Shown piece after piece: positions 20,175 to 64,000 of a DNA stretch of 64,000 nt. The stretch's first letter is position 1, and every line of letters begins with the position of its first letter. The position numbers and the translations under genes were made by a program. The stretch is from NCBI GenBank assembly GCA_016202695.1, contig JACQOE010000019.1, forward strand, positions 1-64,000. The letters run 5' to 3'. Below the pieces are notes generated by a model. That model had not been told where the DNA came from. It searched no databases and worked only from the letters and a program-made list of their open reading frames with translations. This stretch comes from Pseudomonadota bacterium. Its GTDB lineage: Bacteria > Pseudomonadota > Alphaproteobacteria > JACQOE01.

Positions 20175-22274
20175 TTGACCAAGATGAGCTTGGCTGGCAG
20201 GGGCACCGGGAAGGCCCGGATCGGGGTCGACATCGGCGGGACATTCACCGACGTCGCACTTGAGCGGGGAGGCGAGCGGTTCACGAGCAAGGTGCTGACG
20301 ACGAGCGCCGCTCCGGAAAAAGGAGTGCTGGAGTGCCTTCAACTGGTTCTGGAGCGCTCTCGTACGAAGGCCCGCGATGTCGGAATCGTCATTCACGGCA
20401 CGACGCTCGCCACCAATCTCCTGATCGAGCGTAAGGGGGCCAAGACCGCGCTCCTCACCACCGAGGGCTTTCGCGACACGATCGAGATGCGGACCGAGGG
20501 CCGCTACGAGCAGTACGACATCAACATCGACAATCCGGCTCCGCTCGTGCCGCGCCGCCTTCGGCTGCCGGTCGGCGAAAGGATGGGCGCGAGCGGAAAG
20601 GTGCTGCGGCCACTGCGGGACGAGGAGGTGGAGGCCCTCGTTCCGCGCCTGAGGGCCCACGGCGCCGAGAGCGTGGCGATCGGGTTTTTGCACAGCTATG
20701 TCAACCCCTCGCACGAGAGTCGCGCCCGCGCGATTCTCGCGCGACGGATGCCCGGCCTCGCCATCTCGCTGTCCTCGGAGGTCTCGCCCGAGATGCGCGA
20801 GTTCGAGCGCTTCTCCACCGCCTGCGCGAACGCCTATCTGCAGCCGGCCATGGAAGGCTATCTGCGCAATCTTGCGACCGGTCTCGAGAGGGCCGGGTTC
20901 GCATGCCCTCTCTTCCTTATGCATTCCGGCGGCGGCTTCATGACCGTCGAGACGGCGATCCGGTTTCCCGTGCGGCTGGTCGAGTCGGGCCCGGCAGGCG
21001 GCGCCATCTTCAGCAGTTTCATCGCCAGGCAGTACGGGTTATCCGAGGTCCTGTCCTTCGACATGGGCGGGACGACGGCGAAAATCTGCCTGATCGAAGG
21101 GGCCAAGCCGCAGACCACCCGAATCTTCGAGGCCGCGCGCGTCTATCGTTTCAAGAAAGGAAGCGGCCTTCCCCTTCGCATTCCGATGATCGAGATGGTG
21201 GAGATCGGCACCGGCGGCGGCTCCATAGCCACGCTCGATAGGATGGGGAAGATTAAGGTCGGTCCCGAGAGCGCGGGCTCGGAGCCGGGGCCGGCCTGCT
21301 ATGGGCGCGGCGGCGCGTCGCCGACGGTGACGGACGCCGACCTCGTCATGGGTCGGATCAATCCCAACGCCTTCTCCGGGGGTGCGATCCGGCTCGACGT
21401 CGGCAGGGCGACCGCGGCCATCGCCGACCATGTCGGCAGGCGGCTCGGGATGCCGCCGGAACTGGCGGCATTCGGAATCTCCGAGATGGCCGACGAGGAC
21501 ATGGCGAACGCCTCGCGCGTCCACGCGATCGAAAGCGGCAAGGACGTGACCGCCCGGACCCTCGTCGCCTTCGGCGGCGCGGCACCGCTGCACGCGACGC
21601 GGATCGCCCAGAAGATAGGCGTGCGCAGGATCATCGTCCCCACGAGCGCCGGCGTCGGCTCGGCGGTCGGCTTCCTCCGCGCGCCGGTGACGTACGAGAT
21701 CGTGCGGAGCAGCCATCAGCGGCTGAGCGCCTTCGACCCCGAACTCGTCAATCGCGTCCTCGCCGAGATGAGCCGGCAGGCGCGCGCGGTGGTCTTGCCG
21801 GCGGCCGACGGCCGGCCGATGGAGGAGCGGTGGTCGGCGTTCATGCGCTACGTGGGGCAGGGATACGAGATCGCGGTTCCGGTTCCGAAGCGCCCGCTGA
21901 CGGCCGGGGATGGGCGCCTGCTTCTCGAGGCGTTCGAGGAGGTCTACCGGAAGCATTACACCTGGTCGGTCCAAGGCCCCGATGTCGAGGTGCTGAGCTG
22001 GACGGTCCTGGTGAGCGTGCAGGTGGCCGAGGAGGCGCAGGCGCCGAGGCCCGGTGCGGAGCACCGGCCGGAGCCGAGCGGCCGGCGCGAGGTGTTCGAT
22101 CCGGATCAGGGCCGGTTCGTCCCCTTCGCGGTGTATCGCCGGGAGCGGCTCGCGGCAGGGGCCGTCATCGATGGTCCGGCACTGATCGAGGAGGACCAGA
22201 CGACGACCGTGGTTTCGCCGGGCTTCCAAGCGCGTATCGATGCCTTCGGCTCGATCGACTGCGTGCGACGGTAG
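20175..22274 (+). CDS. hyuA: HyuA-type hydantoinase/oxoprolinase subunit A, pair 1
   Basis: 699-aa ATP-dependent hydantoinase/5-oxoprolinase family A subunit, which activates the ring amide with ATP. The actin-like phosphate motifs are GVDIGGTFTDV (17-27) and DMGGTTAK (296-303); the third is GTGGGSIA, where the other complete copies have GAGGGSIA. GAGGTG sits five bases before the TTG at 20175, favouring TTG over the ATG at 20184. hyuB follows after 26 bp. Closest known activities are N-methylhydantoinase (ATP-hydrolysing), 5-oxoprolinase and acetone/acetophenone carboxylase. No carboxylase gamma subunit is present, which favours the hydrolase role. Confidence 0.9.
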   Translation: MTKMSLAGRGTGKARIGVDIGGTFTDVALERGGERFTSKVLTTSAAPEKGVLECLQLVLERSRTKARDVGIVIHGTTLATNLLIERKGAKTALLTTEGFRDTIEMRTEGRYEQYDINIDNPAPLVPRRLRLPVGERMGASGKVLRPLRDEEVEALVPRLRAHGAESVAIGFLHSYVNPSHESRARAILARRMPGLAISLSSEVSPEMREFERFSTACANAYLQPAMEGYLRNLATGLERAGFACPLFLMHSGGGFMTVETAIRFPVRLVESGPAGGAIFSSFIARQYGLSEVLSFDMGGTTAKICLIEGAKPQTTRIFEAARVYRFKKGSGLPLRIPMIEMVEIGTGGGSIATLDRMGKIKVGPESAGSEPGPACYGRGGASPTVTDADLVMGRINPNAFSGGAIRLDVGRATAAIADHVGRRLGMPPELAAFGISEMADEDMANASRVHAIESGKDVTARTLVAFGGAAPLHATRIAQKIGVRRIIVPTSAGVGSAVGFLRAPVTYEIVRSSHQRLSAFDPELVNRVLAEMSRQARAVVLPAADGRPMEERWSAFMRYVGQGYEIAVPVPKRPLTAGDGRLLLEAFEEVYRKHYTWSVQGPDVEVLSWTVLVSVQVAEEAQAPRPGAEHRPEPSGRREVFDPDQGRFVPFAVYRRERLAAGAVIDGPALIEEDQTTTVVSPGFQARIDAFGSIDCVRR

Positions 22275-22300
22275 GGTAGGGGGAACGGAGGTCCCGGACC

Positions 22301-24052
22301 ATGATTGGGCATGATGCGCTCTCTCAAATTCGCATGCAGGTGATGTGGAACCGCCTGATCTCGGTGGTCGAGGAACAGGCGCAGACGCTCATCCGCACCG
22401 CGTTTTGCACCGCCACCCGTGAGGGCGGCGATCTATCGGCCGGGGTCTTCGACCCTAAGGGCCGGATGCTCGCCCAGGCGGTCACCGGCACGCCCGGGCA
22501 CGTCAACTCCATGGCCAACGGGGTCAAGCACTTCCTCGCGAAGTACCCGATCGACTCGATGCGGGAGGGCGATCACTACATCACCAACGATCCCTGGATC
22601 GCGTCCGGACACCTTCACGACTTCATGATCGTCACGCCGTGCTTCCACCGCGGCCGGCCGGTGGCCCTGTTCTCGGCGATCGTCCACGTCGTCGACGTGG
22701 GGGGACGCGGCTACATCGCCACCTGCCGCCAAGTGTACGAGGAGGGGCTCCTGATCCCGATCGCGCCTTTGATAAGGGCCGGCCAGAGGAACGAAATCCT
22801 GCTCGATGTCATCCGCGAGAACGTCCGCGAGCCGACCCAGGTGATCGGCGATCTCTATGCGCTCGTGGCATGCACCAACGACGGCTGCAAGCGCCTCAAG
22901 GGGATGATGAACGAGCTCGATCTCGATAACCTCGACGAGCTGGGCGGCTACATCATCGACAGCTCGCGCGAGGCGACGCTCCGCGAAATCCGCAAGATTC
23001 GGAAGGGGACCTACCGCTACACCCTCAGGTCCGACGGGATGGACTTCGAGGTCGACATAGTGGGTGCCGTAACCGTGACCGACGACGGCATCCATGTCGA
23101 TTACACGGGCACGGGCCCGGTGAGCGACTACGGCATCAACGTGGTCATGAACTACACCGAGGCCTACACGCTTTACGGGGTGAGCTGCATCGTCGCTCCG
23201 GACATCCCGCAGAATGCGGGGTCGCTCGAGCCGATCCGGATCACTGCCCCCGCGGGCTGCATCCTCAACGCTCCGCGCCCGTGGCCCGTGGCCGCGCGGC
23301 ATGTGCTCGGCCACATGCTGCCGGACGTGGTCATGGGCTGTCTCGTGCAGGCGATACCGGACCGGGTGATCGGGGAATCGGGCATGACCTGGAACCCTCA
23401 CATCCGTGGCGGTCCTTCCGTGGTCGGTCGAGCGGCCGGCGACGTCGATGTGAGCGGCTTGCCGGAGTTCGACGTCTTCATGATCAACAGCGGCGGAATG
23501 GGCGCGCGGGCGACCAAGGACGGGCTCTCGGCCACCGCGTTTCCGAGCGGAGTCCGCACGACGCCCGCCGAGGCGACGGAGACGATCTCGCCCATCATCG
23601 TCTGGCGCAAGGAGTACCGGCCCGACTCCGGCGGCGCCGGCAGGAGTCGAGGCGGGGTCGGGCAGATCCTCGAGATCGGCGGCGCCGACAACTTTCCGTT
23701 CGTCGCTTCGGTGATGCTGGACAAGGTGCGCAACCCTCCGCTCGGCCGCAACGGCGGCAGGCAGGGGGCCGGCGGGCACGTGCTGCTCAGGTCCGGCGCC
23801 GAGCTCGCGCAAAAGGGCGTTCACAGGATCCCGCGCGGCGATCATCTCTACCTTGAGCTTCCGGGCGGGGGCGGCAATGGCGACCCGCTCGAGCGCGAGC
23901 CCGAGAAGGTGGTCGAGGACGTACTGGACGAACTCGTTTCCATCGCCACGGCGCGCCGGGAGTATGGGGTCGTCGTTCGCGAGGACGGGACCCTCGACAG
24001 CGAGGCGACCCGGCGGGCCCGGGCGGAGATTCGCGCGAGCGGTTCCGCCTGA
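22301..24052 (+). CDS. hyuB: HyuB-type hydantoinase/oxoprolinase subunit B, pair 1
   Basis: 583-aa B subunit that works with the A subunit to hydrolyse the activated amide. Family landmarks are NDPWIASGHLHDF, HVVDVGGRG, EEGLLIP, the DYTGTGP motif and the glycine-rich end LPGGGGNGDPLERE. The ATG at 22301 comes 26 bp after hyuA. The sequence at HVVDVGG differs from the HH/HS/HT-xDxGG of the other copies, so this pair may have its own substrate. Confidence 0.9.
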   Translation: MIGHDALSQIRMQVMWNRLISVVEEQAQTLIRTAFCTATREGGDLSAGVFDPKGRMLAQAVTGTPGHVNSMANGVKHFLAKYPIDSMREGDHYITNDPWIASGHLHDFMIVTPCFHRGRPVALFSAIVHVVDVGGRGYIATCRQVYEEGLLIPIAPLIRAGQRNEILLDVIRENVREPTQVIGDLYALVACTNDGCKRLKGMMNELDLDNLDELGGYIIDSSREATLREIRKIRKGTYRYTLRSDGMDFEVDIVGAVTVTDDGIHVDYTGTGPVSDYGINVVMNYTEAYTLYGVSCIVAPDIPQNAGSLEPIRITAPAGCILNAPRPWPVAARHVLGHMLPDVVMGCLVQAIPDRVIGESGMTWNPHIRGGPSVVGRAAGDVDVSGLPEFDVFMINSGGMGARATKDGLSATAFPSGVRTTPAEATETISPIIVWRKEYRPDSGGAGRSRGGVGQILEIGGADNFPFVASVMLDKVRNPPLGRNGGRQGAGGHVLLRSGAELAQKGVHRIPRGDHLYLELPGGGGNGDPLEREPEKVVEDVLDELVSIATARREYGVVVREDGTLDSEATRRARAEIRASGSA

Positions 24053-29032: not shown

Positions 29033-30319
29033 CTACCGGTAGAACGCGCGCGGCAGGACGAGCGCGATCTCGGGGAACGCCAGCATCAGGCCGAGCATCA
29101 CCGCGATGGCGACCAGGAACGGCGCGATCCCGATGAATACATCGTTGAGCGACCCCTTCCCGCGAATGCCCTGGATGACGTAGCAGAGTACGCCGATCGG
29201 CGGGGTGAGCACCGCCATCTCGCAGAGGAGCACCACCAGGATGCCGAACCACACCGGATCGTAGCCGAGCCCGACGACCACCGGCGTCACCAGGGGGACG
29301 GTCAGCACCATCATCGACAGGGTTTCCATGAACATGCCCATGATCACGTAGATGCCGATGATGAACAGCATCGTCTCGATGGGCGTGAATCCGAGCGTGA
29401 CGATGAATCGGTTGACTTGATCGACGAGGCCGATCGACGCGAAGACGAAGTTGAGGTAGAGGGCGATGATGACCATCAGCAGAAGCATGGCCGAGGTGCG
29501 GATCGTCCCCTCCATGCCGGCCTTGAGCATCGGCCAGTCGAGACGGCGATTCCACGCCGCCAGTCCGAGCGCTGCGAGCACGCCGAGCGCGGCCGCCTCG
29601 GTCGGGGTGGCCCAGCCGGCATAGATCGAGCCGACGACGACGAGGAAGAGTAGGATCGGCGGGCCGAGGTCGGCGAGACTTGCGAACCGGCGAGCCCAAC
29701 TCGTCGTCACCGTCTCACCGTCCCACTCGGGCCTCAGCAGGCAGGCGGCGACAACCACGACCATGTAAAGCAGGGCGAGCATGATGCCGGGGATGATGCC
29801 GGCGAGGAAGAGCTGCGGAACCGAGGTGTCGGTGAGGTAGCCGAAGACGATCATATTGATCGAGGGCGGGATCAGGATGCCCAGCGTCCCGCCGGCGGCC
29901 AGGCTGCCGAGGAACAGGCGCGCGTTGTAGCCTCTGATCTCGATCTGCGGAATCGCGGTCGTGCCGATCGTCGCCGCCGTGGCGACGGTCGAGCCGGTGG
30001 TCGCGGCAAAGAGAGCGCAGGTGCCGATGTTGGCATGCATCAGCCCGCCCGGAAGCCACGACAGCCACTGGGCCATGGCCTCGTACATGCGATCGGCGAT
30101 GCCGGAGCGCAGGAGGAGCTCGCTCATCAGGATGAAGAGCGGGATGGCGATCAGGACGAAGTTGACGCTGTGCGACCAGAAAACTTCGCCGAACGCGATG
30201 TGGATCGGAAGGAGGCTGTAGGCGAGGTCGAGGACCAGGGCCAGCGCCCCGAGCACGACCGCGACGGGCAGCGACAGCACGATCAGGACGATCAGGACCA
30301 GCGTGGCGGTGGTCAGCAT
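29033..30319 (-). CDS. dctM: TRAP transporter large permease, system 2
   Basis: 428-aa DctM-type ion-coupled permease with about 12 membrane segments. Landmarks are IPLFILMSELLLRSGIADRM, CALFAATTGSTVATAATIG, ILIPPSINMIVFGYLTD and VLTPPIGVLCYVIQ. It is similar to system 3 (52459-53742) over its whole length, much more than to system 1. It ends the P-Q-M operon and converges on the methyltransferase gene across about 90 bp. Confidence 0.94.
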   Translation of the reverse strand: MLTTATLVLIVLIVLSLPVAVVLGALALVLDLAYSLLPIHIAFGEVFWSHSVNFVLIAIPLFILMSELLLRSGIADRMYEAMAQWLSWLPGGLMHANIGTCALFAATTGSTVATAATIGTTAIPQIEIRGYNARLFLGSLAAGGTLGILIPPSINMIVFGYLTDTSVPQLFLAGIIPGIMLALLYMVVVVAACLLRPEWDGETVTTSWARRFASLADLGPPILLFLVVVGSIYAGWATPTEAAALGVLAALGLAAWNRRLDWPMLKAGMEGTIRTSAMLLLMVIIALYLNFVFASIGLVDQVNRFIVTLGFTPIETMLFIIGIYVIMGMFMETLSMMVLTVPLVTPVVVGLGYDPVWFGILVVLLCEMAVLTPPIGVLCYVIQGIRGKGSLNDVFIGIAPFLVAIAVMLGLMLAFPEIALVLPRAFYR

Positions 30320-30337
30320 GCGCGGGCGTCCGCCGGC

Positions 30338-30922
30338 CTATCTGGCCGGCCGGCCGCGGGGCTTGTCGCCGGCCCCGGCCATTTCCTCGGACAGCGACGG
30401 GGCGCCGGCGAGCCGCTGGATGGTGGCGAGGTCGCGCCTGGTCAGCGCCGCCGCCACCCGGGCGAGAAGAACGAGAATGCAGAGCAGGAAGAAGACGAGG
30501 CCGAGCAACCAAAGAGACTGCGGGATGACCAGCGGAGTCCCGAGCGACGTGTTCGAGATCGCGTGCATCTCCAGTGTGCTTCCGAGGACCCCGACCGCGC
30601 GCAGGCAGAGGAGCCCGATGACGAGGGCGAAGGCGAGGAGAGAGACGAGGTCGAGAACGGCGCGCAGCCAGGGCGAAAACCGGACGTAGACGGCGTCGAC
30701 GCGGACGTGCGCGCGCTCGAAGAGGGCGTAGGCGTAGCCCCAGGCCATGCTGATGGCGAGGGCGTAGCTGGCCAGCTCGTCGGCCCCGCCGACCGAGACC
30801 TGGAAGATCTTGCGCGCGACCACCTCGACGCCGATCAGGCCGGCGGCGAGGATCAGGAGGCCGCAGCCGACGTAAACGCCGCCGCGGGCGACGGTCTCGG
30901 CAAGGGACTGAAGGCGCTCCAT
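30338..30922 (-). CDS. dctQ: TRAP transporter small permease, system 2
   Basis: 194-aa DctQ-type protein with four predicted membrane segments and the pattern GADELASYALAISMAWGYAY then ERAHVRVDAVY. It lies 18 bp before dctM and about 126 bp after dctP. The layout matches DctQ of system 3, supporting paralogy of the two systems. Confidence 0.9.
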   Translation of the reverse strand: MERLQSLAETVARGGVYVGCGLLILAAGLIGVEVVARKIFQVSVGGADELASYALAISMAWGYAYALFERAHVRVDAVYVRFSPWLRAVLDLVSLLAFALVIGLLCLRAVGVLGSTLEMHAISNTSLGTPLVIPQSLWLLGLVFFLLCILVLLARVAAALTRRDLATIQRLAGAPSLSEEMAGAGDKPRGRPAR

Positions 30923-31048
30923 GCGACGCTTCCTCGGGCGTTATCGCCGGGTCTGGCATCCCACCGGCGCGGGCCGAGGGTCGCCCGCGGCTCGCGCCGG
31001 GGGGGGCGGCGTGACGGCTACGGCCGCCCCCGGTACGGGCACCGCGGC

Positions 31049-41232: not shown

Positions 41233-41278
41233 TCCCGACCCCGCGGCCGGCGGCGTTGCGCCCGCATGCGCCCGCGCT

Positions 41279-42896: not shown

Positions 42897-42965
42897 GGTT
42901 TCGCTTCCGCCGGCCGGAGTTCGGCGCGCTGGCGGCCGGCAAGGCGAGGCCGACAGGAGGTGGTC

Positions 42966-48655: not shown

Positions 48656-48781
48656 CACCAGCGGGCGGCACGATCCGACCGTCCCCGGCGTCTTCGCTGT
48701 TCCGGCGGCGCGCGCCGTTGTGGTATGGTCCGCCCCTGGAGGGGGAGGCTCGTCTTGATCCTCGCAGGAAAGGCGAGCCGC

Positions 48782-51769: not shown

Positions 51770-51844
51770 GCCCAGCGGCGGCGCGCCCGCCATCCGGCGG
51801 GCAGCGCCGCCGGCCGCGGGTCTGGCCGGGACGGATATTCGGGG

Positions 51845-52462: not shown

Positions 52463-53742
52463 TGGCGACCGCCCTGATCGCGCTCGGCGTCTTCATAGCC
52501 TTCGCCTTGCCGGTGGCCGGCGTGCTCGGGCTTCTCGGCTTTGTCCTCGATCAGTTCACGCCCGTTCCCACCCACGTGGTGATCGGTGAGACGGCGTGGC
52601 AGCACGGCACCGGCTTCATCCTGGTGGCGGTTCCGCTGTTCATCCTCATGGGCGAGATGCTGCTGCTGTCGGGGGTTGCCGATCGCATGTACAACGCCGT
52701 GCTGCAATGGATCGCAAGGCTGCCCGGCGGGCTGATGCACGCCAACATCGCCTCCTGCGCGCTGTTCGCGGCGACCTCGGGATCGAGCGTCGCCACCGCC
52801 GCGACGGTCGGCACCGTGGCCATCCCGCAGATCGAGAAGTACGGCTACAACGAGCGGCTGTTCCTGGGCTCGTTGGCCGCCGGCGGGACGCTCGGCATCC
52901 TGATCCCGCCGTCGATCAACATGATCATCTACGGGGTGCTCACCGACACCTCCATTCCCCGGCTTTACCTCGCCGGGTTTTTCCCCGGCATCGTGCTCGC
53001 GTTTCTGTTCATGCTGATCGTCCTAGCCGCCTGCCTGCTCCGCCCCGGCTGGGGCGGGAAGCGAGTGGAGACGACCCGCGAGGCGCGGATCGCCGGGCTT
53101 CCCCACCTGCTGCCCCCGTTGGGCCTGTTTCTGGTCGTGGTCGGTTCGATCTACGTCGGCATCGCCACCCCGACCGAGGCGGCGGCGATCGGCGTGCTGA
53201 TCTCCTTTGGCCTCGCCGCCGGGCAGGGGCGCCTGACCCTGCCGGTGCTGCACCGGGCGCTCGAGGCCACCATGCGCACCACGTCGATGATCCTGCTGAT
53301 CATCGTCGCCGCCTATTTCCTCAATTTCAGCATCGCCTCCACCGGGCTGATCGACCGCGTCAATGTCTTCATCCTCGGGCTGGGCTGGACGCCCCTGCAA
53401 ACCATGATTGGCGTCATCGCCGTCTACCTGGTCCTGGGATGCATCATGGACGTGCTGGCGATGATGGTGCTGACGCTTCCCATCATCACCCCGGTGGTGG
53501 TGCATCTCGGCTACGACCCGGTCTGGTTCGGGATCATCATCATGCTGGTGTGCGAGGCGGCCCTCATCACGCCGCCGATCGGCATGAACTGCTACGTGAT
53601 CCAGGCCGTGCGCGGCCGGGGCCTGCTCGACGACGTGATGATCGGCATCGTCCCCTTCGTCGTCGCGATCATCATCATGTTCGCCATCCTCCTTGCCTTC
53701 CCGGACCTCGCCCTATGGCTGCCGACGCTGATGATGCGGTAG
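52459..53742 (+). CDS. dctM: TRAP transporter large permease, system 3
   Basis: 427-aa DctM-type permease with about 12 membrane segments. VPLFILMGEMLLLSGVADRM, CALFAATSGSSVATAATVG, ILIPPSINMIIYGVLTD and LITPPIGMNCYVIQ are shared almost word for word with system 2, so systems 2 and 3 are paralogues. It overlaps dctQ, and an ATGATG makes the second Met an alternative start. Confidence 0.94.
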   Translation: MMATALIALGVFIAFALPVAGVLGLLGFVLDQFTPVPTHVVIGETAWQHGTGFILVAVPLFILMGEMLLLSGVADRMYNAVLQWIARLPGGLMHANIASCALFAATSGSSVATAATVGTVAIPQIEKYGYNERLFLGSLAAGGTLGILIPPSINMIIYGVLTDTSIPRLYLAGFFPGIVLAFLFMLIVLAACLLRPGWGGKRVETTREARIAGLPHLLPPLGLFLVVVGSIYVGIATPTEAAAIGVLISFGLAAGQGRLTLPVLHRALEATMRTTSMILLIIVAAYFLNFSIASTGLIDRVNVFILGLGWTPLQTMIGVIAVYLVLGCIMDVLAMMVLTLPIITPVVVHLGYDPVWFGIIIMLVCEAALITPPIGMNCYVIQAVRGRGLLDDVMIGIVPFVVAIIIMFAILLAFPDLALWLPTLMMR

Positions 53743-53812: not shown

Positions 53813-54826
53813 ATGACCGGTACAAAGACATCGACCTTAGTGCCGTGGAAGGACACGAAGCTCATGAAAGAACTCAGGGATTTCAGATTCTTGGCACTCG
53901 TCGCGGGAGTGGCGGGAATGGCGTTTCCGCTGTCCGCGGCCGACTATCCGAGCAAGCCGATCACGATGATCGTCCCTTATGCGGCCGGGGGATCGGGCGA
54001 CCTGACGACGCGCCTGACCGCCGACCTGCTCAAGGACATCCTCAAGGTCAACGTCCAAGTCGAGAACGTCACCGGCGGCGGGGCGACCATCGGCATCTCC
54101 CAGGTGGCGCGCTCGAAGCCGGACGGCTACACACTGGCCCTGGTAACCACCAGCCCGATCACCGTCAGCCCGCTTGTCTCCAAGGTGCCATACGATCCGC
54201 TCAAGGACCTCACGTACGTTGCCCGCGTGATCGTGCTGCCGCATCCCTTCATCGTCCGCAGCAACAGCGCCTTCAAGTCGCTGGCCGACGTGTTCGATTA
54301 CGCGCGCAAGAACCCGGGCAAGTTCCGCTGGTCGGCGGCGGCGGCCCGGGGCGGCCCGCACCTCTCGACCGAGATGATGTTCAAGACGGAGGGCGTGGGC
54401 ACGACCTACGTGCCGTTCTCGGGCGGCACCGAGGCCGTGGCGGCGCTGCTCGGCGGCCAGATCGACGCCGCGGTGGTGACCGACTTCGCCGGCCCCCTGG
54501 CCGCCGGCGAGGTCCGGGTGCTGGCCGAGAGCGGGCCGGTTCGGATCGCCTCGCTGCCCGAGGTCAGGACGTACAAGGAGCTCGGATATCCGCTGTCGCC
54601 CTCGATCTTCCTTGGCTTCGCGGGGCCGGCCGGGCTGCCGCCCGAGGTGGTCAAGACGCTCGATGGGGCGATCGCGAAGGCGCTCGAGCACAAGCGGTTC
54701 GTCGAGCTGGCGGAGCGGCTGAAGATGGCCCGGGCCTTCGCCGGCGGCACGGAATTCGCGGCGCTCGTCAAAGCCGACATTGCCGGGATGAAGGACGCGC
54801 TCGACAAGCTCGGCCTCGGCAAATAG
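53813..54826 (+). CDS. tctC: Tripartite tricarboxylate transporter binding protein, system 2
   Basis: 337-aa TctC/Bug-family binding protein. AAGGAGCG precedes the ATG at 53813; an internal ATG (MKELRDF, 53864) would give a more usual signal peptide ending at PLSAAD. The mature domain shows YPSKPITMIVPYAAGGSGDL and RSKPDGYTLAL. It lies 70 bp after TRAP 3 on the same strand, so two secondary importers of different families appear back to back. Confidence 0.91.
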   Translation: MTGTKTSTLVPWKDTKLMKELRDFRFLALVAGVAGMAFPLSAADYPSKPITMIVPYAAGGSGDLTTRLTADLLKDILKVNVQVENVTGGGATIGISQVARSKPDGYTLALVTTSPITVSPLVSKVPYDPLKDLTYVARVIVLPHPFIVRSNSAFKSLADVFDYARKNPGKFRWSAAAARGGPHLSTEMMFKTEGVGTTYVPFSGGTEAVAALLGGQIDAAVVTDFAGPLAAGEVRVLAESGPVRIASLPEVRTYKELGYPLSPSIFLGFAGPAGLPPEVVKTLDGAIAKALEHKRFVELAERLKMARAFAGGTEFAALVKADIAGMKDALDKLGLGK

Positions 54827-54999
54827 ATGCCGTCGCTGGCCCCCCAAGGCGCCGCCGTACCCCGGCCGCGACCGGGCCGGAACCTTGCCGGCCGTAGCGA
54901 GGGAGGGACGCAATAGACCGGCTCGACAGGGAGCTTCGGCTCTGTCTCCCCATCCGCGCCTCGCGCGCCCGCGCCGCGGCCTGGGCGGCGATCCTCCTT

Positions 55000-55461
55000 G
55001 TGGGTTGCGTGCTCTTCCTCGCCTGGGGGGCCGCGGCGTGGATCGAGGCCGGATACGACAGGAGCCCCGGCGCGGTCTCGCCGCGGTTCGTGCCCGCCTT
55101 CTCGGTGGGATTGCTGGGGCTCCTGCTCCTTTGGCGCATCCTCGTGATGCTGTTGCCCATCGCCGCCGCCGGTCAGGACAAGGAGCCCGAGGCGCCCGCT
55201 CCACCCACCCTCCGGGGCGTGGCGGCGGCGGCGGCGACGCTGGTCTACGCGACGCTGCTCTCGCCGCTGATCGGCTTCTATGCCGCAAGCATCGTGTTCT
55301 TCTTCGTCGTCTGCATGAGCGCCGGCGAGCGTCGTCCACTTGTCCTGGCGGGCGGGGTCGCGGTCCTGCTCGGCGCCTGCTACCTGTTGTTTGAGCAGTT
55401 GATGCAGGTCCGGCTGCCGCACGGGGCCCTATGGCCCTGGCTCGGTCTGGTCGAGTCCTAG
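55000..55461 (+). CDS. tctB: Tripartite tricarboxylate transporter small permease, system 2
   Basis: TctB-like membrane protein, four predicted segments, with the SPGAVSPRFVPA loop after the first. A GTG at 55000 gives 153 aa but cuts into the first membrane helix. The open frame continues upstream to a TAG at 54895, and a clear Shine-Dalgarno (GGGAGGGA, 54901-54908) precedes an ATA at 54913; starting there gives a full first helix and a basic leader. No ATG, GTG or TTG lies between. The true start is therefore uncertain and may be a mutated or non-standard codon. Confidence 0.78.
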   Translation: MGCVLFLAWGAAAWIEAGYDRSPGAVSPRFVPAFSVGLLGLLLLWRILVMLLPIAAAGQDKEPEAPAPPTLRGVAAAAATLVYATLLSPLIGFYAASIVFFFVVCMSAGERRPLVLAGGVAVLLGACYLLFEQLMQVRLPHGALWPWLGLVES

Positions 55462-55483
55462 CGGCGGGGCATACGAGCTCGGG

Positions 55484-57016
55484 ATGGACACGATCGTCGA
55501 CGGCATCGGGCTTGCGCTCTCCTGGCAGGCCCTGCTAGCCATCGTCGCGGGGCTGGCCGCCGGGCAGGTCCTCGGCGCGATCCCCGGGCTCACCGCCAGC
55601 ATGGCTGTCGCGATCCTGATCCCGTACACCTATTACTTCTCGCCCTGGGTTGGCATTCCGATGCTGATCGCCATGTTCAAGGGGGCACTGTTCGGGGGCA
55701 GCATCTCGGCGGTGCTGCTGCGCACTCCGGGAACGCCGGCGGCGGCGGCGACGGTCGCCGACGGCCATGCCCTGGCGATGCAGGGGAAGGGCGGCAAGGC
55801 CCTGAATATGGCCCTCTACGCCTCGGTCTTCGGCGACACCTTCAGCGACATCTGCCTGATCTTCGCCGCCGGGGCGCTGGCCCTTATCGCGGTGCGCTTC
55901 GGCCCGCCCGAGTATGCCCTGCTGATCATCTTCTCGCTCCTCACCCTGGGTTCGCTCTCCGGGCGTGAGGTGTGGAAGGGGCTGGCGAGCGCGCTCGTCG
56001 GGCTGCTGCTGGCGACCGTCGGGTTCGATCCGATGGAAGGGACCGAGCGCCTCACGTTCGGCTTTCTTTCCCTGCTGGACGGCTTCCAGCTGATTCCGGT
56101 TCTGATCGGCCTGCTCGCGGTATCGGAGATCTTGATACAGCTCGAGAAGCCCGCGGCCGAGTTGGCGCTCAAGGCCCTCGTCCCCTCGGGCCGGCCGGAG
56201 GACTCGCGCGTCTCCTGGGCGGAGTTCCGCTCGCAGATGCCGGTGCTGGTCAAGTCGTCGATTCTCGGAACCCTGATCGGCGCGATGCCGGGGCTGGGGG
56301 CGACGGTGGCCGCGTTCCTCGCCTATAACGAGGCCCAGCGCGCCTCCCCGCACCCGGAGAGGTTTGGCACCGGCGTGCTCGAGGGCGTCTCCGCCCCGGA
56401 GTCGGCGAACAACGCGGTCTCGGGCGCAAATCTCATCCCGCTCCTCGCCTTCGGCATCCCCGGCGATGTGGCCGCCGCCCTCATCCTCGGGGCGTTCATG
56501 ATCCAGGGGATCACACCGGGGCCGCTGGTCTTCCGCGAGAATCCGGTCGAGATCTACGCGATCTTCGCCAGCCTGATCATCGCCAACCTGTTGAACCTGG
56601 TGATCGGGAAGGGCCTGATTTACACCGCGGTCGGAGCGCTGAAGATTCCCAAGCGGCTCCTCTTCCCGGCCGTCCTCGTCCTCGCCGTGGCGGGCTCGTA
56701 CGCGATCCGGGGGTCGAGCTTCGACGTCGTGGTGGTCGTCGGCTTCGGCATCCTCGGCTATGTCCTCACCAAGCTCAACGTGCCGCTCGTCCCGCTCATC
56801 ATCGGCTTCATCCTGGGGCCGATCCTTGAGGTGGCGCTCCGCCGGACACTGATCCTCGTCTCCCCTGAGGACAACTGGCTGATGTACTTCGCCAGCCGCC
56901 CGATCTTCCTGGTGCTGTTCGTCGTCCTTGCCGTCCTCGGCGGCCTGCTGCTGCGCCGGCGAAGCGAAATGATCGGGATCGAAAGGCATCCCGAAGTCGA
57001 GCGACCCTCCGAATGA
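55484..57016 (+). CDS. tctA: Tripartite tricarboxylate transporter large permease, system 2
   Basis: 510-aa TctA, 11-12 predicted membrane segments. Blocks are GAIPGLTASMAVAILIPYTYYF, RTPGTPAAAATVADGHALA, GLGATVAAFLAYNEAQ and GVSAPESANNAVSGANLIPLL. It follows tctB by 22 bp. Its stop overlaps an ATG in the hyuB4 frame, so transporter and enzyme genes are linked in one transcript. Confidence 0.93.
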   Translation: MDTIVDGIGLALSWQALLAIVAGLAAGQVLGAIPGLTASMAVAILIPYTYYFSPWVGIPMLIAMFKGALFGGSISAVLLRTPGTPAAAATVADGHALAMQGKGGKALNMALYASVFGDTFSDICLIFAAGALALIAVRFGPPEYALLIIFSLLTLGSLSGREVWKGLASALVGLLLATVGFDPMEGTERLTFGFLSLLDGFQLIPVLIGLLAVSEILIQLEKPAAELALKALVPSGRPEDSRVSWAEFRSQMPVLVKSSILGTLIGAMPGLGATVAAFLAYNEAQRASPHPERFGTGVLEGVSAPESANNAVSGANLIPLLAFGIPGDVAAALILGAFMIQGITPGPLVFRENPVEIYAIFASLIIANLLNLVIGKGLIYTAVGALKIPKRLLFPAVLVLAVAGSYAIRGSSFDVVVVVGFGILGYVLTKLNVPLVPLIIGFILGPILEVALRRTLILVSPEDNWLMYFASRPIFLVLFVVLAVLGGLLLRRRSEMIGIERHPEVERPSE

Positions 57017-57030
57017 GAAAAGAGGGAAAG

Positions 57031-58677
57031 ATGAGCCGATCCGGGCTCGGTCCGGTCAGGCTGGGGATCGTCTGGCAGCGACTCAACGGGCTGATGGACG
57101 AGGTTGCCCAGGCCTTCGTTCGCACCTCGTTCTCGACCGTGATCCGCGAGAACTGGGATCTTGCCTGCGCGCTCCTCGATCCCAGAGGGCGCCAGGTCGT
57201 GCAGTCGAGCCGCAGCGTTCCGTCCTTCATCGGTACGATGTCGCGGACCCTGGAGGCGATGCTTGCGGCCTATCCCGCCGAGACCCTGAAGCCCGGCGAC
57301 GTGCTGATCACGAACGACCCGTGGGTGTCGAGCGGGCACCTGAACGACATCACCATGGCCAAGCCCATATATCGCGGCGACCGGCCGCTCGGATTCGTCG
57401 CCAGTACTTTCCACTCGGTCGACATCGGCGGCGCGCCCTCGCCGGGCGCGCGCGATACCTACGAGGAGGGACTGTGGATTCCGGTGCGCAGGATCGTGCG
57501 CGCGGGCGAGGAGAACGAGGACATCGTCGCCGTGATCCGGCAGAACCTGCGCCAGCCGCGCGAGACCCTGGGCGACATCCGCGCCCAGTTCGCGGCCTAT
57601 GATGTGGCCGAGCGGCGCCTCATGCGGATCCTCGACGAGGAGGGGGTCGATGACTTCGACGCCGTGGTCGAGGAGATACTGGAGCGCTCGGAACAAAGCC
57701 TACGACGCGCCATCGCCCGCGCTCCCGACGGCGAATACGCGGGCGAGATCGTCGCCGACGGGGTCGATCACCCGCTCGCGATCCGGGCCAGGGTGCGGAT
57801 CGCGGGCTCCGACATCGACATCGACTTCACCGGCACCTCGCCGCAGGTCGCGCGGCCGATCAACTCCGTCGTCAACTACACATTTTCCTGGTGCGCGTTC
57901 GCCATCAAGTGCCTGTTCGATCCCGACGTCCCCAACAACGAGGGGTCGTTCCGGCCGATCCGCATCCACGTTCCCGAGGGATCGCTGCTCAATCCGCGGC
58001 CGCCGGCGCCGGTGTGGGCGCGCCACCTCTCCGGGCACTACGTGCCGCCGGTCATCTTCCGCGCCCTGGCGCCGATCCTGCCGGAGCGGGCGATGGCGGA
58101 GTCCGCGTCGCCGATCTGGACCGTCTATTTCAAGGGTGCCCAGGCCGGGGGCGAACCGTTCGTGAAGATGTACTTCATGTCCGGCGGACTTGGGGCACGA
58201 TCGAGCCTCGATGGGCCGGATTGCCGGAGCTTCCCGAGCAACATCTCGAACTCGCCGGTGGAGGTGTTCGAGAACGCGGTCCCGGTCATGATCCACGAGA
58301 AGACCCTGATCGACGACTCCGGAGGTCCGGGCCGCACGCGCGGCGGGTTGGGGCAGCGGATCGAGTTCGAGTCCCTCTCCGAGGGGCCGATCGTGATGAC
58401 CATCCGGCACGAGCGGGTGAAGAACCCGCCGCAGGGACTGCTTGGGGGCTTGGCCGGCAGCCGCGGCGTCAACCGCCTGAACGGCAAGGACATCCCAGCG
58501 ATGACCCAGATGGCGCTCGGCAAGGGGGACCGGCTCGCCTTCGAAACCCCGGGCGGCGGCGGCATCGGCCCGCCGGCGGAGCGCCCGCGCGACCTGGTCA
58601 AGCGCGACATGGAACTCGGCTACGTCTCGCCCGAGGCGGCGAGGACCGTCTATGGCTGGGGCGATGCCGGCGACTGA
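57031..58677 (+). CDS. hyuB: HyuB-type hydantoinase/oxoprolinase subunit B, pair 4
   Basis: 548-aa B subunit; here hyuB precedes hyuA, the reverse of pairs 1-3. ATG 57031 was preferred because GAGGGAAAG precedes it and it aligns with copy 5; ATG 57013, overlapping the tctA stop, is an alternative. Landmarks are NDPWVSSGHLNDI, FHSVDIGGAPSPGARDTYEEGLWIP and TPGGGGIGPPAERP. It overlaps hyuA4 by 26 bp. Close to copy 5 in sequence, including RTSFSxVxRxNWDLAxxLLD. Confidence 0.91.
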   Translation: MSRSGLGPVRLGIVWQRLNGLMDEVAQAFVRTSFSTVIRENWDLACALLDPRGRQVVQSSRSVPSFIGTMSRTLEAMLAAYPAETLKPGDVLITNDPWVSSGHLNDITMAKPIYRGDRPLGFVASTFHSVDIGGAPSPGARDTYEEGLWIPVRRIVRAGEENEDIVAVIRQNLRQPRETLGDIRAQFAAYDVAERRLMRILDEEGVDDFDAVVEEILERSEQSLRRAIARAPDGEYAGEIVADGVDHPLAIRARVRIAGSDIDIDFTGTSPQVARPINSVVNYTFSWCAFAIKCLFDPDVPNNEGSFRPIRIHVPEGSLLNPRPPAPVWARHLSGHYVPPVIFRALAPILPERAMAESASPIWTVYFKGAQAGGEPFVKMYFMSGGLGARSSLDGPDCRSFPSNISNSPVEVFENAVPVMIHEKTLIDDSGGPGRTRGGLGQRIEFESLSEGPIVMTIRHERVKNPPQGLLGGLAGSRGVNRLNGKDIPAMTQMALGKGDRLAFETPGGGGIGPPAERPRDLVKRDMELGYVSPEAARTVYGWGDAGD

Positions 58678-60751
58678 GTACGTCATCGGCGTCGACGTCG
58701 GCGGCACGTTCACCGATTTCGTCGGTTGCAAACTCGGCCACGGCGCGATCTTCAACGGCAAGGTCCTGACCACGCCCGACGATCCCTCCGAGGCGGTGCT
58801 CTCGGGCCTGGCACGGATGCTGTCGGCCCACGGCATCGACCCGGCCGCCGTTCGCTACGTCATCCACGGCACCACCCTGGTGGCCAACGCGCTGATCGAG
58901 CGCAAGGGGGTGAAGACCGCGCTCATCACCAGCAAGGGTTTCCGCGACGTGCTCGAGATCGGGCGCGAGTACCGCTACGACACCTACGACCTGTTCATCG
59001 ACATGCCCCGCCCGCTGGTGCCCCGCAACCTCCGCTTCGAGGTCGACGAGCGGATGGACCGCGAGGGGCGTGTCGTCCGCCCGCTGGACCTCCACGCAGC
59101 GGAGCGACTCGCCCGCGAATTGGCGGCGAGTGACGTGCGGGCGGTAGCGGTCGCGTTCCTGCACGCCTACCGCTCCGCGGTCCACGAGCGGGAGATGCAG
59201 GACATCCTGGCCCGATTCGCGCCCCGTCTGACGGTCTCGTTGTCGAGCGAGGTCGTGCCCCAGATCGGAGAGTACGAGCGGAGCTCGACGACGGTCGCCA
59301 ACGCCTACGTGAAGCCGATCTTCGAGACCTATGTCGGCAGGCTGTCGGAGGGGCTGCGGCGGCTCGGCATCGGACGCGACCTCTACCTCGTCCTCTCCGA
59401 CGGCGGCACGGTTGATCGCAAGACGGCCGCCGCGCACCCGGTGCGCCTGGTCCACTCCGGACCGGCCGGAGGCGCCCAGGCGGCCGCCCTCTACGGGCGG
59501 CTGGGGGGCGCCGACAGGGTGCTGGCCTTCGACATGGGCGGCACGACCGCGAAAGCGTGCCTGATCGAGGAGGGGCGCCCGAACCGGACGACCGAGGTCG
59601 AGATCGCGCGGCTGGCCCGCTTCAAGCCGGGGAGCGGGATTCCGCTCCGCGTGCCGATCGTCAACATGATCGAGATCGGCGCTGGGGGCGGAAGCATCGC
59701 CCGGGTCAACAGCCTCGGCTTGGTGCAGGTCGGTCCCGACAGCTCGGGCGCGAAGCCCGGCCCGGCGTGCTATGCCCTGGGCGGGGTGGAGCCCACGGTG
59801 ACTGACGCCGACCTGGTCCTCGGCTACCTCGATGCCGGCAGTTTTCTCGGCGGGGAGATGGCCCTGGATGTCGCGGCGGCGCGTCGCGCGCTCCACGATC
59901 GGGTCGCGGCGCCGCTCGGGCTCTCGGTCGAGGAGGCCGCGCTCGGCGTGTTCCAGACGGTCAACGAGGGCATGGCGCAGGCGGCCGCGATCCATGCCCT
60001 CGAACAGGGCAAGAGGATCGTCGATTTCGCCCTGGTGGCGATCGGCGGCGCGGGCCCGGTCCACGCCTGGGCGCTGGCGCGGGCGCTGGGGATCGGCCGG
60101 CTCATCTCTCCGCTCGGCGCCGGCGTCGCCTCAGCCTTCGGCTTCCTCGCCGCCCCGACCGCGTTCGAGGCCACCCGCACCCGGCTCACCCCGCTTGCCG
60201 CGGTCGAGGCGAGCGGGACGCGAAGCCTCGTCGACGAGCTTGCGGGGCACGGGTTGGCGCTGCTCGAGAGGTCGGGAGAATCGCGCGCGCCGGCGCGGAT
60301 CGACGTCTTCGCCGCCATGCGCTACGTCGGCCAGGGGTACGAGGTCGAAACGCCGCTGCCGCGGGAGCTGGTCGAGAGCGGCGACCAGGATGGTCTGGCG
60401 CGGCGCTTCGAGGCGGCCTACCGGTTGCTGTTCGGCCGCACCGAGGTCGGGTTCCCGGTGGAGATCGTCTCCTGGCGGGTGATCGTCTCCGGCCCGGTGC
60501 CGGCGATCGTCCCGGCGATCCCGGAAGGGCTCGCCTTGGTCGGGAAGCCGGCCGGGAAGGGCGTCCGCGCGGTCTATTTCGCCGAGGCGGGGGGATTCGT
60601 CGACACCCCCGTCTTCAACCGATACGCGCTCGAGCCGGGCTTTAGCGCGGAGGGCCCGCTCGTCGTCGAGGAAAGGGAATCGACCCTGGTCGTCCCCCCG
60701 CAAAGCCGGCTGTCGATCGATGCCTCGCGCAACGCTATCGTCGCGCTTTAG
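58652..60751 (+). CDS. hyuA: HyuA-type hydantoinase/oxoprolinase subunit A, pair 4
   Basis: 699-aa A subunit. GVDVGGTFTDFV near the N-terminus, DMGGTTAK (294-301) and GAGGGSIARV are complete. ATG 58652 overlaps hyuB4; ATG 58664 (MPATEY) would shorten the protein by four residues. Its 3' end overlaps the convergent HpaI-like gene by 17 bp. It is closely similar to the partial copy 5, consistent with a tandem duplication of the hyuBA unit. Confidence 0.92.
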   Translation: MAGAMPATEYVIGVDVGGTFTDFVGCKLGHGAIFNGKVLTTPDDPSEAVLSGLARMLSAHGIDPAAVRYVIHGTTLVANALIERKGVKTALITSKGFRDVLEIGREYRYDTYDLFIDMPRPLVPRNLRFEVDERMDREGRVVRPLDLHAAERLARELAASDVRAVAVAFLHAYRSAVHEREMQDILARFAPRLTVSLSSEVVPQIGEYERSSTTVANAYVKPIFETYVGRLSEGLRRLGIGRDLYLVLSDGGTVDRKTAAAHPVRLVHSGPAGGAQAAALYGRLGGADRVLAFDMGGTTAKACLIEEGRPNRTTEVEIARLARFKPGSGIPLRVPIVNMIEIGAGGGSIARVNSLGLVQVGPDSSGAKPGPACYALGGVEPTVTDADLVLGYLDAGSFLGGEMALDVAAARRALHDRVAAPLGLSVEEAALGVFQTVNEGMAQAAAIHALEQGKRIVDFALVAIGGAGPVHAWALARALGIGRLISPLGAGVASAFGFLAAPTAFEATRTRLTPLAAVEASGTRSLVDELAGHGLALLERSGESRAPARIDVFAAMRYVGQGYEVETPLPRELVESGDQDGLARRFEAAYRLLFGRTEVGFPVEIVSWRVIVSGPVPAIVPAIPEGLALVGKPAGKGVRAVYFAEAGGFVDTPVFNRYALEPGFSAEGPLVVEERESTLVVPPQSRLSIDASRNAIVAL

Positions 60752-61472
60752 CGCGCGGCCGCCGCTGGCGGGGCGGGGCGGCGCCGATGCCGGCGCCGAC
60801 CCGGCAGGCAAAATCCTCGGCTCCGTAGGCGAGGAAGCCGTTGACGTGCTCGTAGAGGAACCGCACGCCCTTGCGGAGATACGCCTCGACGTCGCCTCGC
60901 TCGACCAGCATCCCGGCCACGCGACCGGCGGCGAGGATGTCGGCGATCGCGCCGTCGATCGCCGCCTGCACCTCCGGCCGGCGGTAGTCGCCGGCGTGGC
61001 CGAGGTCCTTGGCAAGGTCGACCGGGCCGATGAAAAACGCGTCGATGCCGTCGACGGCGAGGAGCGTATCGAGGTCGCCGAGGGCGGCCCGGGTTTCGAC
61101 CTGGACGACGATCACCTTCTCGGCATGCGAGCGGGGAAAGCAGTAGCGGACAGCGCCGACCACGCGTTGCGCCTCGTCGGCCGACTCGACGCGGGGGGCG
61201 ACGATACCGTCGACGCCCCGGAACATGACCCGCTCGATCACCCAGTCCTCGCGCGAGAAGATGCGCGCGATCGAGACCAGGCTGGCGAGCCGCGCCGCCC
61301 GGGCCATGTTCTCGACCGTCTCGAAGTCGGGGCTTCCCTGCTCGCAGTCGATGAACACGGCGTCGATGCCGAGCCCGCCCATGCGCTCGACCAGGCTCGG
61401 CGAGGGATGATCCGCGTTCACCACGATGACCGGCTGGTTTCGCCGAAGCTTCTCCTTGAAGGCCCGCGTCAT
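60735..61472 (-). CDS. HpcH/HpaI-family aldolase-like protein, copy 2
   Basis: 245-aa protein of the HpcH/HpaI fold. Metal and substrate positions are seen in IDCEQGSPD (41-49), VVQVETRAAL and FFIGPVDLAKDLG. Where E. coli HpaI has Glu44-His45, this protein has Glu44-Gln45, so the catalytic histidine is replaced. It sits on the minus strand between hyuB4A4 and hyuB5A5, converging with hyuA4 (17-bp overlap) and divergent from hyuB5 across about 118 bp. It may have altered chemistry, for example as a lyase or esterase of a related acid. Confidence 0.85.
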   Translation of the reverse strand: MTRAFKEKLRRNQPVIVVNADHPSPSLVERMGGLGIDAVFIDCEQGSPDFETVENMARAARLASLVSIARIFSREDWVIERVMFRGVDGIVAPRVESADEAQRVVGAVRYCFPRSHAEKVIVVQVETRAALGDLDTLLAVDGIDAFFIGPVDLAKDLGHAGDYRRPEVQAAIDGAIADILAAGRVAGMLVERGDVEAYLRKGVRFLYEHVNGFLAYGAEDFACRVGAGIGAAPPRQRRPRAKARR

Positions 61473-61590: not shown

Positions 61591-63276
61591 ATGGCGACAC
61601 TCAATCCGATCCAGCTCGGGGTCATCTGGCAGCGGCTGAGCGGCCTCTTCGACGAGGTCGCGCAGACCTTCGTGCGCACCTCCTTCTCCTCCGTGGTGCG
61701 CGACAACTGGGACCTCGCGTTCGGCCTGCTCGACACCAGGGGCCGGCAGTTCATGCAGCCGCGGCGCAGCATCCCCTCGTTCATCGGCACCATGCCGCGC
61801 ACGCTGCGGGCGATGCTCTCGGTCTATCCGGTCGCCGCCCTGGCGCCGGGGGATGTCCTGATCTCGAACGACTCCTGGCACGGAACCGGGCATCTCAACG
61901 ACATCACGATGATGCACCCGGTCTTCCGCGAGGGCCGCCTGATCTGCTTCATCGGCAGCGTCTTCCACACCGTCGACATCGGCGGCGCGCCCTCGGTCAA
62001 TGCGCGCGACTGCTACGAGGAGGGGATCTGCATCCCCATCGCCAAGATCCTCGACGGCGGCCGGGAGAACCGGGTGGTCGTCGACCTGATCGCCGAGAAC
62101 GTGCGCGAGCCGGGTGAGACCCTGGGCGACATCCGGGCCCAGTTCGCGGCCTACGGGGTGGCGACGCGAAAGCTCTTCCAGCTCATGGACGAGGAGGGGC
62201 TGGCGACGCTCGACGACGTCGCCGAGGAGATCGTCAGCCGGACCGAGCGGAGCATGCGCGGGGTGATCGCGGCCCTGCCGGACGGCGAGTACGGCGACGA
62301 GGTGATGGTGGACGGCTTCGACGAGCCGCTGGTGGTCCGCTGCCGGCTCTGCGTGCGCGGCTCGAACATCGTCGTCGATTACGCCGGCACCTCGGCGCAG
62401 ATCGACCGGCCGATCAACTCGGTCCTCAACTACACCTACGCCTACAGCGCCTACGCGCTCAAATGCGCGCTCGATCCGAAATCGCCGACCAACGATGGGG
62501 TGTTCCAGCCGATCGGCGTGACCGCTCCCGAGGGCACGCTCCTCAACGCCCGGCGCCCGGCACCGGTGTGGGGCCGCCACCTCGCCGGCCACTACGTCCC
62601 GTTCGCGATCTACGGCGCGCTCGCCAAGGTGGCGCCGGAGAGGGTCATCGCCGACTGCGGCTCGCCCTTGTGGAACGTCTATTTCAAGGGCCGGGACGCG
62701 CGGACCGGCAGGCCGTTCGTGAAGATGTTCTTCATGAACGGCGGCCACGGCGCCCGGCCACACATGGACGGACCCGGCTGCCTGAGCTTTCCGAGCAACG
62801 TCTCGAACCAGCCGATCGAGAGGTTCGAGAACCAAGTCCCCCTGATCGTCACCGAGAAGGCCCTGGTTCCCGACAGCGCGGGCGCCGGCCGCTTCCGCGG
62901 CGGGCCGGCGCAAAGGATCTCGTTCAGGGTGGTTGGCGACAGCCCGGTCACCGTGACCTTCCGTCACGAGCGGGTAAAGTTTCCGCCGCGCGGTCTTCTC
63001 GGCGGCGAGCCAGGAAGCCCGGGGGTCGAGACGGTCAACGGCCGGCGCGTGCCGGCGAAGACGAGCGAGGTGCTCAACCCGGGCGACGTCGTCACCTTCC
63101 AGATGCCCGGAGGAGGCGGCATGCACCCGCCGAAGGAGCGCGACCGCGCCCTCATCGCCGCCGACCTTCGCGCCGGCCTGATCACGCCCGAATTCGCCTG
63201 GGCCCGCTACGGCTACGGCCCGGACCCGACGGACGCCGCGCCGGAGCGGACCGACTCCACGGCCGGACTTCGCTAG
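61591..63276 (+). CDS. hyuB: HyuB-type hydantoinase/oxoprolinase subunit B, pair 5
   Basis: 561-aa B subunit. ATG 61591 follows TGAGGGGG; the upstream extension is antisense to the HpaI-like gene and rejected. Landmarks are NDSWHGTGHLNDI (Ser replaces the usual Pro after ND), FHTVDIGGAPSVNARDCYEEG, DYAGTSAQIDRP and MPGGGGMHPPKERD. Very similar to copy 4. hyuA5 starts 13 bp after its stop. Confidence 0.91.
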   Translation: MATLNPIQLGVIWQRLSGLFDEVAQTFVRTSFSSVVRDNWDLAFGLLDTRGRQFMQPRRSIPSFIGTMPRTLRAMLSVYPVAALAPGDVLISNDSWHGTGHLNDITMMHPVFREGRLICFIGSVFHTVDIGGAPSVNARDCYEEGICIPIAKILDGGRENRVVVDLIAENVREPGETLGDIRAQFAAYGVATRKLFQLMDEEGLATLDDVAEEIVSRTERSMRGVIAALPDGEYGDEVMVDGFDEPLVVRCRLCVRGSNIVVDYAGTSAQIDRPINSVLNYTYAYSAYALKCALDPKSPTNDGVFQPIGVTAPEGTLLNARRPAPVWGRHLAGHYVPFAIYGALAKVAPERVIADCGSPLWNVYFKGRDARTGRPFVKMFFMNGGHGARPHMDGPGCLSFPSNVSNQPIERFENQVPLIVTEKALVPDSAGAGRFRGGPAQRISFRVVGDSPVTVTFRHERVKFPPRGLLGGEPGSPGVETVNGRRVPAKTSEVLNPGDVVTFQMPGGGGMHPPKERDRALIAADLRAGLITPEFAWARYGYGPDPTDAAPERTDSTAGLR

Positions 63277-63289
63277 GGACGTCGCGATC

Positions 63290-64000
63290 ATGGTGCAGCC
63301 GCACTATCGCATCGGTGTCGACATCGGCGGCACGTTCACCGACCTCGTGCTGATGGACGAGGGGTCGGGACGTCTGTTCAGCGAGAAGGTGCTGACGACG
63401 CCGGAGGATCCCTCCGAGGCGGTGCTGTCGGGGGTGGCGAGCCTGCTCGCCAAGGCGGGCGTGCGGGCCGGCGAGATCTCCAACGTGATCCATGGGACCA
63501 CGCTGGTCGCCAACGCCCTGATCGAGCGCAAGGGCGTGAAGACGGCGCTGGTCACCACCGCCGGATTCCGCGACGTGCTTGAGATCGGCCGCGAGCTTCG
63601 CTACGACACCTACGATCTCTTCATCGAGATGCCGCGGCCGCTGGTGCCGCGCGAGCTCCGCTTCGAGGTCGTCGAGCGGATCGGCCCCAAGGGCGAAGTT
63701 CTGGTGCCGCTCGACCAAGGCAGCGCCCGCGCGCTGGCCGAGCAGCTACGTGCCTCGGATGTCGAGGCGGTGGCCGTTGTCTTCCTGCACAGCTTTCGCA
63801 ACCCGGGCCACGAGACCGCGGTCAAGAGACTCTTCGCCGAGGCGGCGCCGCGGCTCACGGTCTGCGCCTCGAGCGAGGTGATGGCCGAGATCGACGAGTA
63901 CGAACGAACCTCGACGACCGTCGCCAATGCCTACGTGCATCCCATCTTCCGGCGCTACCTGGGCCGCTTGGTGGGGGCGTTGCGCGAGCTGGGGATCGCG
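63290..64000 (+). CDS. hyuA: HyuA-type hydantoinase/oxoprolinase subunit A, pair 5 (partial, runs off the window)
   Basis: The first 237 codons of a HyuA subunit, open to the right edge of the window. It starts MVQPHYRIGVDIGGTFTDLV and continues with IHGTTLVANALIERKGVKTAL, RDVLEIGRELRYDTYDLF and EYERTSTTVANAYVHP. These match copy 4 closely; the DMGGTTAK motif would lie beyond the edge. Together with hyuB5 it is the second hyuBA unit of the tandem pair. Confidence 0.9.
   Translation, partial: MVQPHYRIGVDIGGTFTDLVLMDEGSGRLFSEKVLTTPEDPSEAVLSGVASLLAKAGVRAGEISNVIHGTTLVANALIERKGVKTALVTTAGFRDVLEIGRELRYDTYDLFIEMPRPLVPRELRFEVVERIGPKGEVLVPLDQGSARALAEQLRASDVEAVAVVFLHSFRNPGHETAVKRLFAEAAPRLTVCASSEVMAEIDEYERTSTTVANAYVHPIFRRYLGRLVGALRELGIA

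Follow-up and report, generated by a model that had tools for sequence, protein, structure and literature searches.

Why does one bacterial contig carry five HyuA/HyuB gene pairs interleaved with solute importers, and what does such a density say about the genome around it? We analyzed a window of 64,000 nt (bases 1-64000 of contig C96, which is 125,476 bases long), in which an initial annotation had placed five pairs at 20175-64000, three ordered A-B and two B-A. The coordinates confirm the pairs, at 20184-64000, and their order, A-B, A-B, A-B, B-A and B-A; inside the window A genes are as numerous as B genes, and the Pfam scores lie far above cut-off, as PF05378 and PF01968 match A1-A4 (271-300 bits for PF01968) and PF02538 matches B1-B5 (452-572 bits). 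The window end cuts the fifth A gene (63290-64000, PF05378), which is whole on the same contig at 63290-65374 and passes for PF01968 too at full length. Pairwise identity among the pairs is 39-61% for A and 34-57% for B, indicating separate subfamilies side by side rather than fresh copies, and at 34-61% identity a recent tandem amplification of the window is ruled out.

All of the pair genes lie on the plus strand. Pair 1 comprises the ATP-binding subunit HyuA 1 (20184-22274; PF05378, PF01968 and PF19278; motifs DIGGTFTD, DMGGTTAK and GSEPGP), which groups in the tree with the A subunits of contigs C2, C26 and C77, and the metal subunit HyuB 1 of clade II (22334-24052, alternative start possible at 22301; PF02538 452 bits; metal tetrad kept). 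Pair 2 is divergent from TRAP importer 2, as the initial annotation had described: the importer occupies 29033-32095 on the minus strand (DctM 29033-30319, DctQ 30338-30922, DctP 31049-32095) and was recognized from PF03480, gene length and order, and clustering with other TRAP genes. HyuA 2 (32453-34540; PF01968 300 bits) and HyuB 2 of clade III (34594-36357; PF02538 572 bits) follow, with a plus-strand gene for an NMT1/THI5-like solute-binding-type protein (36425-37351; PF09084) on the 3′ side. Between pairs 2 and 3 lie a minus-strand TctA/TctB/TctC importer 1 (39697-42790; TctC PF03401), whose TctA is a paralogue of that at 55484-57016, and, 5′ of pair 3 on the plus strand, a thiamine-diphosphate enzyme of the acetolactate-synthase family (42960-44693), assigned from Pfam TPP domains and under the NCBIfam cut-offs.

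Pair 3 itself (HyuA 3, 44909-47017, PF01968 295 bits; HyuB 3, 47042-48655, PF02538 511 bits) is conserved as an AB pair in marine alphaproteobacterial metagenome-assembled genomes (MAGs) and in Stella at 66-73% identity, and those close relatives of B3 that carry names are chiefly Rhodospirillaceae and other alphaproteobacteria, on which ground the class is taken to be Alphaproteobacteria. It is followed on the same strand, again as first described, by a D-glutamate cyclase of the DUF1445/YcsI type (48725-49648; PF07286; NF003969 above cut-off), an HpcH/HpaI-type aldolase (49740-50528; PF03328) and TRAP importer 3 (DctP, DctQ and DctM, 50639-53742; PF03480; clusters k1, k5 and k0). Next comes a plus-strand TctC/TctB/TctA importer 2 (53840-57016; PF03401), which runs into pair 4 as had been proposed, with the ATG of B4 at 57013 and the stop of TctA at 57016 sharing a 4-nt ATGA overlap (57013-57016). 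HyuB 4 (57013-58677, alternative start 57031; PF02538 516 bits) overlaps HyuA 4 (58664-60751; PF01968 275 bits) by 14 nt, and a second HpcH/HpaI-type aldolase on the minus strand (60735-61472; PF03328) separates this pair from HyuB 5 (61591-63276; PF02538 477 bits) and HyuA 5.

These pairs had been taken for intact ATP-dependent amide/lactam hydrolases whose complete A subunits keep DMGGTTAK, and that motif is found in all five, A5 included. The ATP-site motifs are kept in all five A subunits of the window (and in most A subunits genome-wide) and the Asp-His-Asp-His metal tetrad in all five B subunits; the active-site residues of the pairs are intact. For pair 2, both subunits have as their top solved match 7hk5, an ATP-hydrolyzing N-methylhydantoinase, and next CapA and CapB of Pseudomonas jessenii (6yra). 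CapA/CapB is likewise made of two subunits carrying DxGGTxTD, D(M)GGT and GxxPGP motifs; Asp11 and Asp295 of its A subunit and the metal ligands Asp41, His99, Asp102 and His124 of its B subunit are required, and caprolactam hydrolysis needed ATP plus intact A (PMC8453981). The same tetrad is common to the window B subunits. In contrast, 7hk5 is a single fused chain whose fourth aligned metal position is Gln, whereas the window genes are separate and keep all four ligands.

None of these likenesses makes the window pairs caprolactamases proper, since they do not reach the NCBIfam CapAB equivalog cut-off of 1000 bits (NF050156/NF050157), with best scores of about 526 and 322 bits, both from pair 2. 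The columns of the hydrophobic CapB pocket with its vicinal Cys410-Cys411 are gaps in the window B subunits, and the pocket letters differ. The 5-oxoprolinases (OplA/OplB and the fused OPLAH type) share their domains with the A and B subunits here; the window pairs are split and fall outside the group of the fused gene on contig C93, and pair 3 adjoins a D-glutamate cyclase.

The pairs could instead be ATP-dependent carboxylases of the acetone/acetophenone type, since the superfamily is common to both and weaker matches to the Apc and Acx chains are found; the initial annotation had itself raised grouping with these carboxylases and the need for a gamma subunit encoded elsewhere. No closer kinship with the carboxylases is seen in the pairs tested. 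For pair 2, the solved hydrolases 7hk5 and 6yra score well above the acetophenone and acetone carboxylases, and for pairs 1-3 and for A4 the NCBIfam CapA/CapB models, though far under cut-off, score higher than those of Apc, while no window pair reaches an Apc equivalog cut-off. The acetone carboxylase gamma subunit (PF08882) was undetected in this genome, in an assembly that is 87% complete, yet it turns up in 20 of 289 class genomes searched in the same way. The acetone carboxylase AcxABC (5svb, 5m45), distantly homologous in A and B, requires that subunit. Acetophenone carboxylase (5l9w) also has uneven subunit numbers, but with two A-like chains to one B-like chain, the reverse of the genome-wide imbalance described below. 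Structure matches, NCBIfam scores and the absent gamma subunit thus rule against a carboxylase identity, which we regard as highly improbable. We infer that they belong to the ATP-dependent amide/lactam hydrolases of the HyuA/HyuB superfamily (5-oxoprolinase, N-methylhydantoinase, caprolactamase), with the chemistry of each pair read from its relatives and cyclic amides, imides and lactams as presumed substrates.

Gene contexts, read from the stretches around hyuA and hyuB matches, fit a role in breaking down amides and amino-acid-like compounds: around hyuB are amidases, M20 peptidases, amidohydrolases, an Asp/Glu/hydantoin racemase-family protein, aminotransferases, MmgE/PrpD and AtuA/DUF4387-like genes. 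AtuA-family genes and ∼100-aa DUF4387-like genes also occur, duplicated, on the minus strand of the window at 4030-7448, and such pairs recur by hyuB elsewhere in the genome (C53:3600-5338, C27 and C21:76980). A link between TRAP uptake and hyuB is supported. Among 32 DctP matches in the genome, 12 lie within 5 kb of hyuB, a zone covering 11.6% of the genome (binomial p=1.4e-4, an approximate value since the test treats neighboring genes as independent); for TctC, 2 of 8 lie within 5 kb, which is not significant. The suggestion of one importer per pair is not supported genome-wide, as the hyuB genes number more than 50 but have only about a dozen TRAP systems close by, and many of them have no adjoining importer.

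The idea of a specialized genome is supported. The density of the window turns out to be one local excerpt of an expansion that spans the genome. At 3.36 Mb in 100 contigs, the assembly is a fragmented MAG, 87% complete with 4.7% contamination. A PF02538 search gives 58 HyuB matches (44 of them near-complete, the other 14 truncated at contig ends), and a PF01968 search gives 25 HyuA matches, or 24 genes once C32 and C77 are joined. A one-to-one pairing across the genome is contradicted by these 58 and 25 matches, and this genome-wide excess of B over A is the main new element of the analysis. In a sample of 385 class genomes and 399 phylum genomes, none has more HyuB candidates. The next-highest has 40 B and 34 A matches, and the B:A ratio of 2.3 here (58/25) compares with 0.95-1.5 in twelve other HyuB-rich genomes (40/34, 31/28, 30/23, 22/15, 27/22, 22/21, 24/21, 23/24, 20/18, 19/20, 16/16 and 17/17). 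A literature search for HyuB paralogue expansion found none.

Such an excess could arise in assembly or binning, if strain variants or foreign contigs inflated the count. Several contigs end within hyuB and share exact overlaps (138 bp for C40-C94, 136 bp for C48-C16, 129 bp for C56-C18/C69), the stand-alone B genes of C18 and C69 share a common 5′ end on C56, and the contamination level would also allow for it. However, when exact overlaps are joined and every leftover complementary fragment pair is allowed as one gene, the HyuB number is still 51-55, thus at least 51; the closest near-complete B pair is 79% identical, with genes in distinct neighborhoods; members of all five clades I-V are found on just two long contigs, C96 (125 kb) and C21 (111 kb), taken together; and tetranucleotide correlation with C96 is ≥0.967. 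We therefore consider an artefact very unlikely as the cause of the B excess. Since the MAG is fragmented and incomplete, a few A genes may be absent from it. Contigs C16, C18, C34, C36, C40, C48, C51, C53, C56, C69, C92 and C94 end inside hyuB, and they look as if short identical stretches among copies, from conversion or recombination, had broken the assembly.

The surplus B genes occur both in operons and alone. The C99 operon reads A-B-B-B-B, as does that of C40 and C94 when joined across their overlap; C51 reads A-B-B-B, its third B truncated where the contig stops; C32/C77 reads A-B-(membrane protein)-B, with an A-B gap of 172 on C77; and C88 has a B-B tandem without A. Gaps in the C99, C40 and C51 operons are -4 to 41 nt, with one exception of 202. 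Other genomes show such layouts too: A-B-B-B is found in one of them (G366) and A-B-B in three (G080, G195 and G094). In addition, ∼14 contig-interior B genes have no adjoining A (C2:17101, 3.5 kb from a fused A-B gene; C5; C15:8103; C15:27066; C21:12246; C27; C46; C48/C16; C18; C69; two on C88; C96:108880; C98). The converse, a HyuA without adjoining HyuB, is seen at C15:40016-42280. A perfect 38-bp palindrome (C40:7038-7075) lies in the interval that separates the A-B-B-B-B operon of C40 from the gene upstream of it.

Trees place this excess within particular groups. The B groups of this genome (labeled G000 in the trees) are strongly supported (100 for each of II, III and IV), and B outnumbers A clade by clade, with 15 B vs 2 A (on C40 and C99) in clade I, 6 vs 4 in clade II, 7 vs 4 in clade III and 3 vs 1 in clade V. 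Stand-alone B genes nest beside the B genes of the arrays. A set of eight B genes around C40 holds together (support 90), its sister being single-A relatives from other families, and for the second B of the C40 array paralogues are found at 72% and 63% identity, while no sequence from the 384 other class genomes exceeds 50%. A single origin of all 15 clade I genes within this genome was rejected, since the clade split when the closest outside homologues were added: the four B genes of C99 then scatter, interleaving with those of two other families (G204 and G186), which makes that array partly old or transferred rather than all freshly duplicated. In this genome B has been duplicated repeatedly without its A, in operons and as stand-alone genes.

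Whether the extra copies work is a separate matter, and ordinary A-B pairs alone might be at work, with the extra B genes being transient by-products of amplification heading for loss. All near-complete B genes are open frames, and the D-H-D-H ligands are kept wherever readable, stand-alone copies included, except for H99Q in two B genes (C92:31748 and the stand-alone C96:108880-110421). Beside the first of these, a HyuA gene (C92:28607-31732) is broken by one in-frame TAG, and the two are probably a decaying pair. These lesions would fit copies on the way out, as would pairwise dN/dS values of up to 0.78; across the 30 closest pairs listed, the values span 0.32-0.78, all below 1, with dS unreliable owing to GC-rich codon use, which points to constraint, but loose, and is compatible with relaxed constraint as well. 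Sites mapped to the CapB pocket show no excess of variability over the other sites in any group (best p=0.09), which also fits this reading, and diversified substrate choice is accordingly offered only as a hypothesis. On the other hand, open frames, a tetrad kept in all but two copies, array spacing as tight as in a working operon and the recurrence of multi-B operons in other families make it unlikely that the surplus is merely transient.

We favor a different reading, in which one A subunit is shared by several exchangeable B subunits of its clade, because of the 2.3 B:A ratio, the multi-B operons, the B-only radiations and the kept metal ligands. By analogy with CapAB, the A subunit would spend ATP on activating the cyclic-amide carbonyl, after which the substrate, in its activated form, would move via a tunnel to the metal site of B, where the ring would be opened. 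With B copied repeatedly without A, inside A-B-B-B-B operons and as stand-alone genes, one A could partner several B subunits from its clade interchangeably, and the copies might widen the substrate range cheaply. Gene content, intact active-site residues, operon layout and B-only radiations are direct observations; the sharing of A, the chemistry of each pair and the substrates are inferences, and we put the chances of the shared-A reading at about even. The broader proposal that a few HyuA proteins act as common activators for a large exchangeable HyuB set, with the B fold as the substrate-range module, is more tentative and falls somewhat short of that. CapAB differs in having one A and one B in an (alpha-beta)2 tetramer, compared with many B per A here genome-wide.

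Alternatively, stand-alone HyuB proteins could be independent of ATP, working as metal-dependent amidohydrolases or taking substrates that another enzyme activates. The ∼14 interior B genes without A would suit this, as would their neighbors: no A-like or kinase family was found by Pfam among ten neighbors of A-less B genes, and racemase, aminotransferases, amidases, amidohydrolases, MmgE/PrpD and polysaccharide deacetylase-like proteins occur there. We nevertheless think it rather improbable, as stand-alone copies nest in trees with the B genes of A-B operons and the precedent of CapAB argues for a need for ATP and A. With 51-55 B genes against 24 A genes, this genome offers a natural test of subunit exchangeability and of which part sets substrate choice. 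To our knowledge, ATP-dependent lactam/hydantoin hydrolases are known solely as fixed partners or fused chains. The genome points to a lifestyle sustained by the hydrolysis of cyclic amides, which make up a part of organic nitrogen that is poorly understood, and its B set is a pool for hydrolysis of lactams such as the nylon monomer.

Two further observations concern related genes. Within the window, 3′ of an oligopeptide-type ABC importer, 7587-8675 encodes an AAT (acyl-CoA:6-aminopenicillanic-acid acyltransferase-family) protein, possibly another amide-handling enzyme. Elsewhere, fused A-B genes are found at C93:44044-47685 and C2:22420-26283; the former, a 1357-aa open frame, groups with single-chain genes of other families, while the latter belongs to the clade of the window's pair 1. 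Since the two fall in different groups, A-B fusion probably arose more than once.
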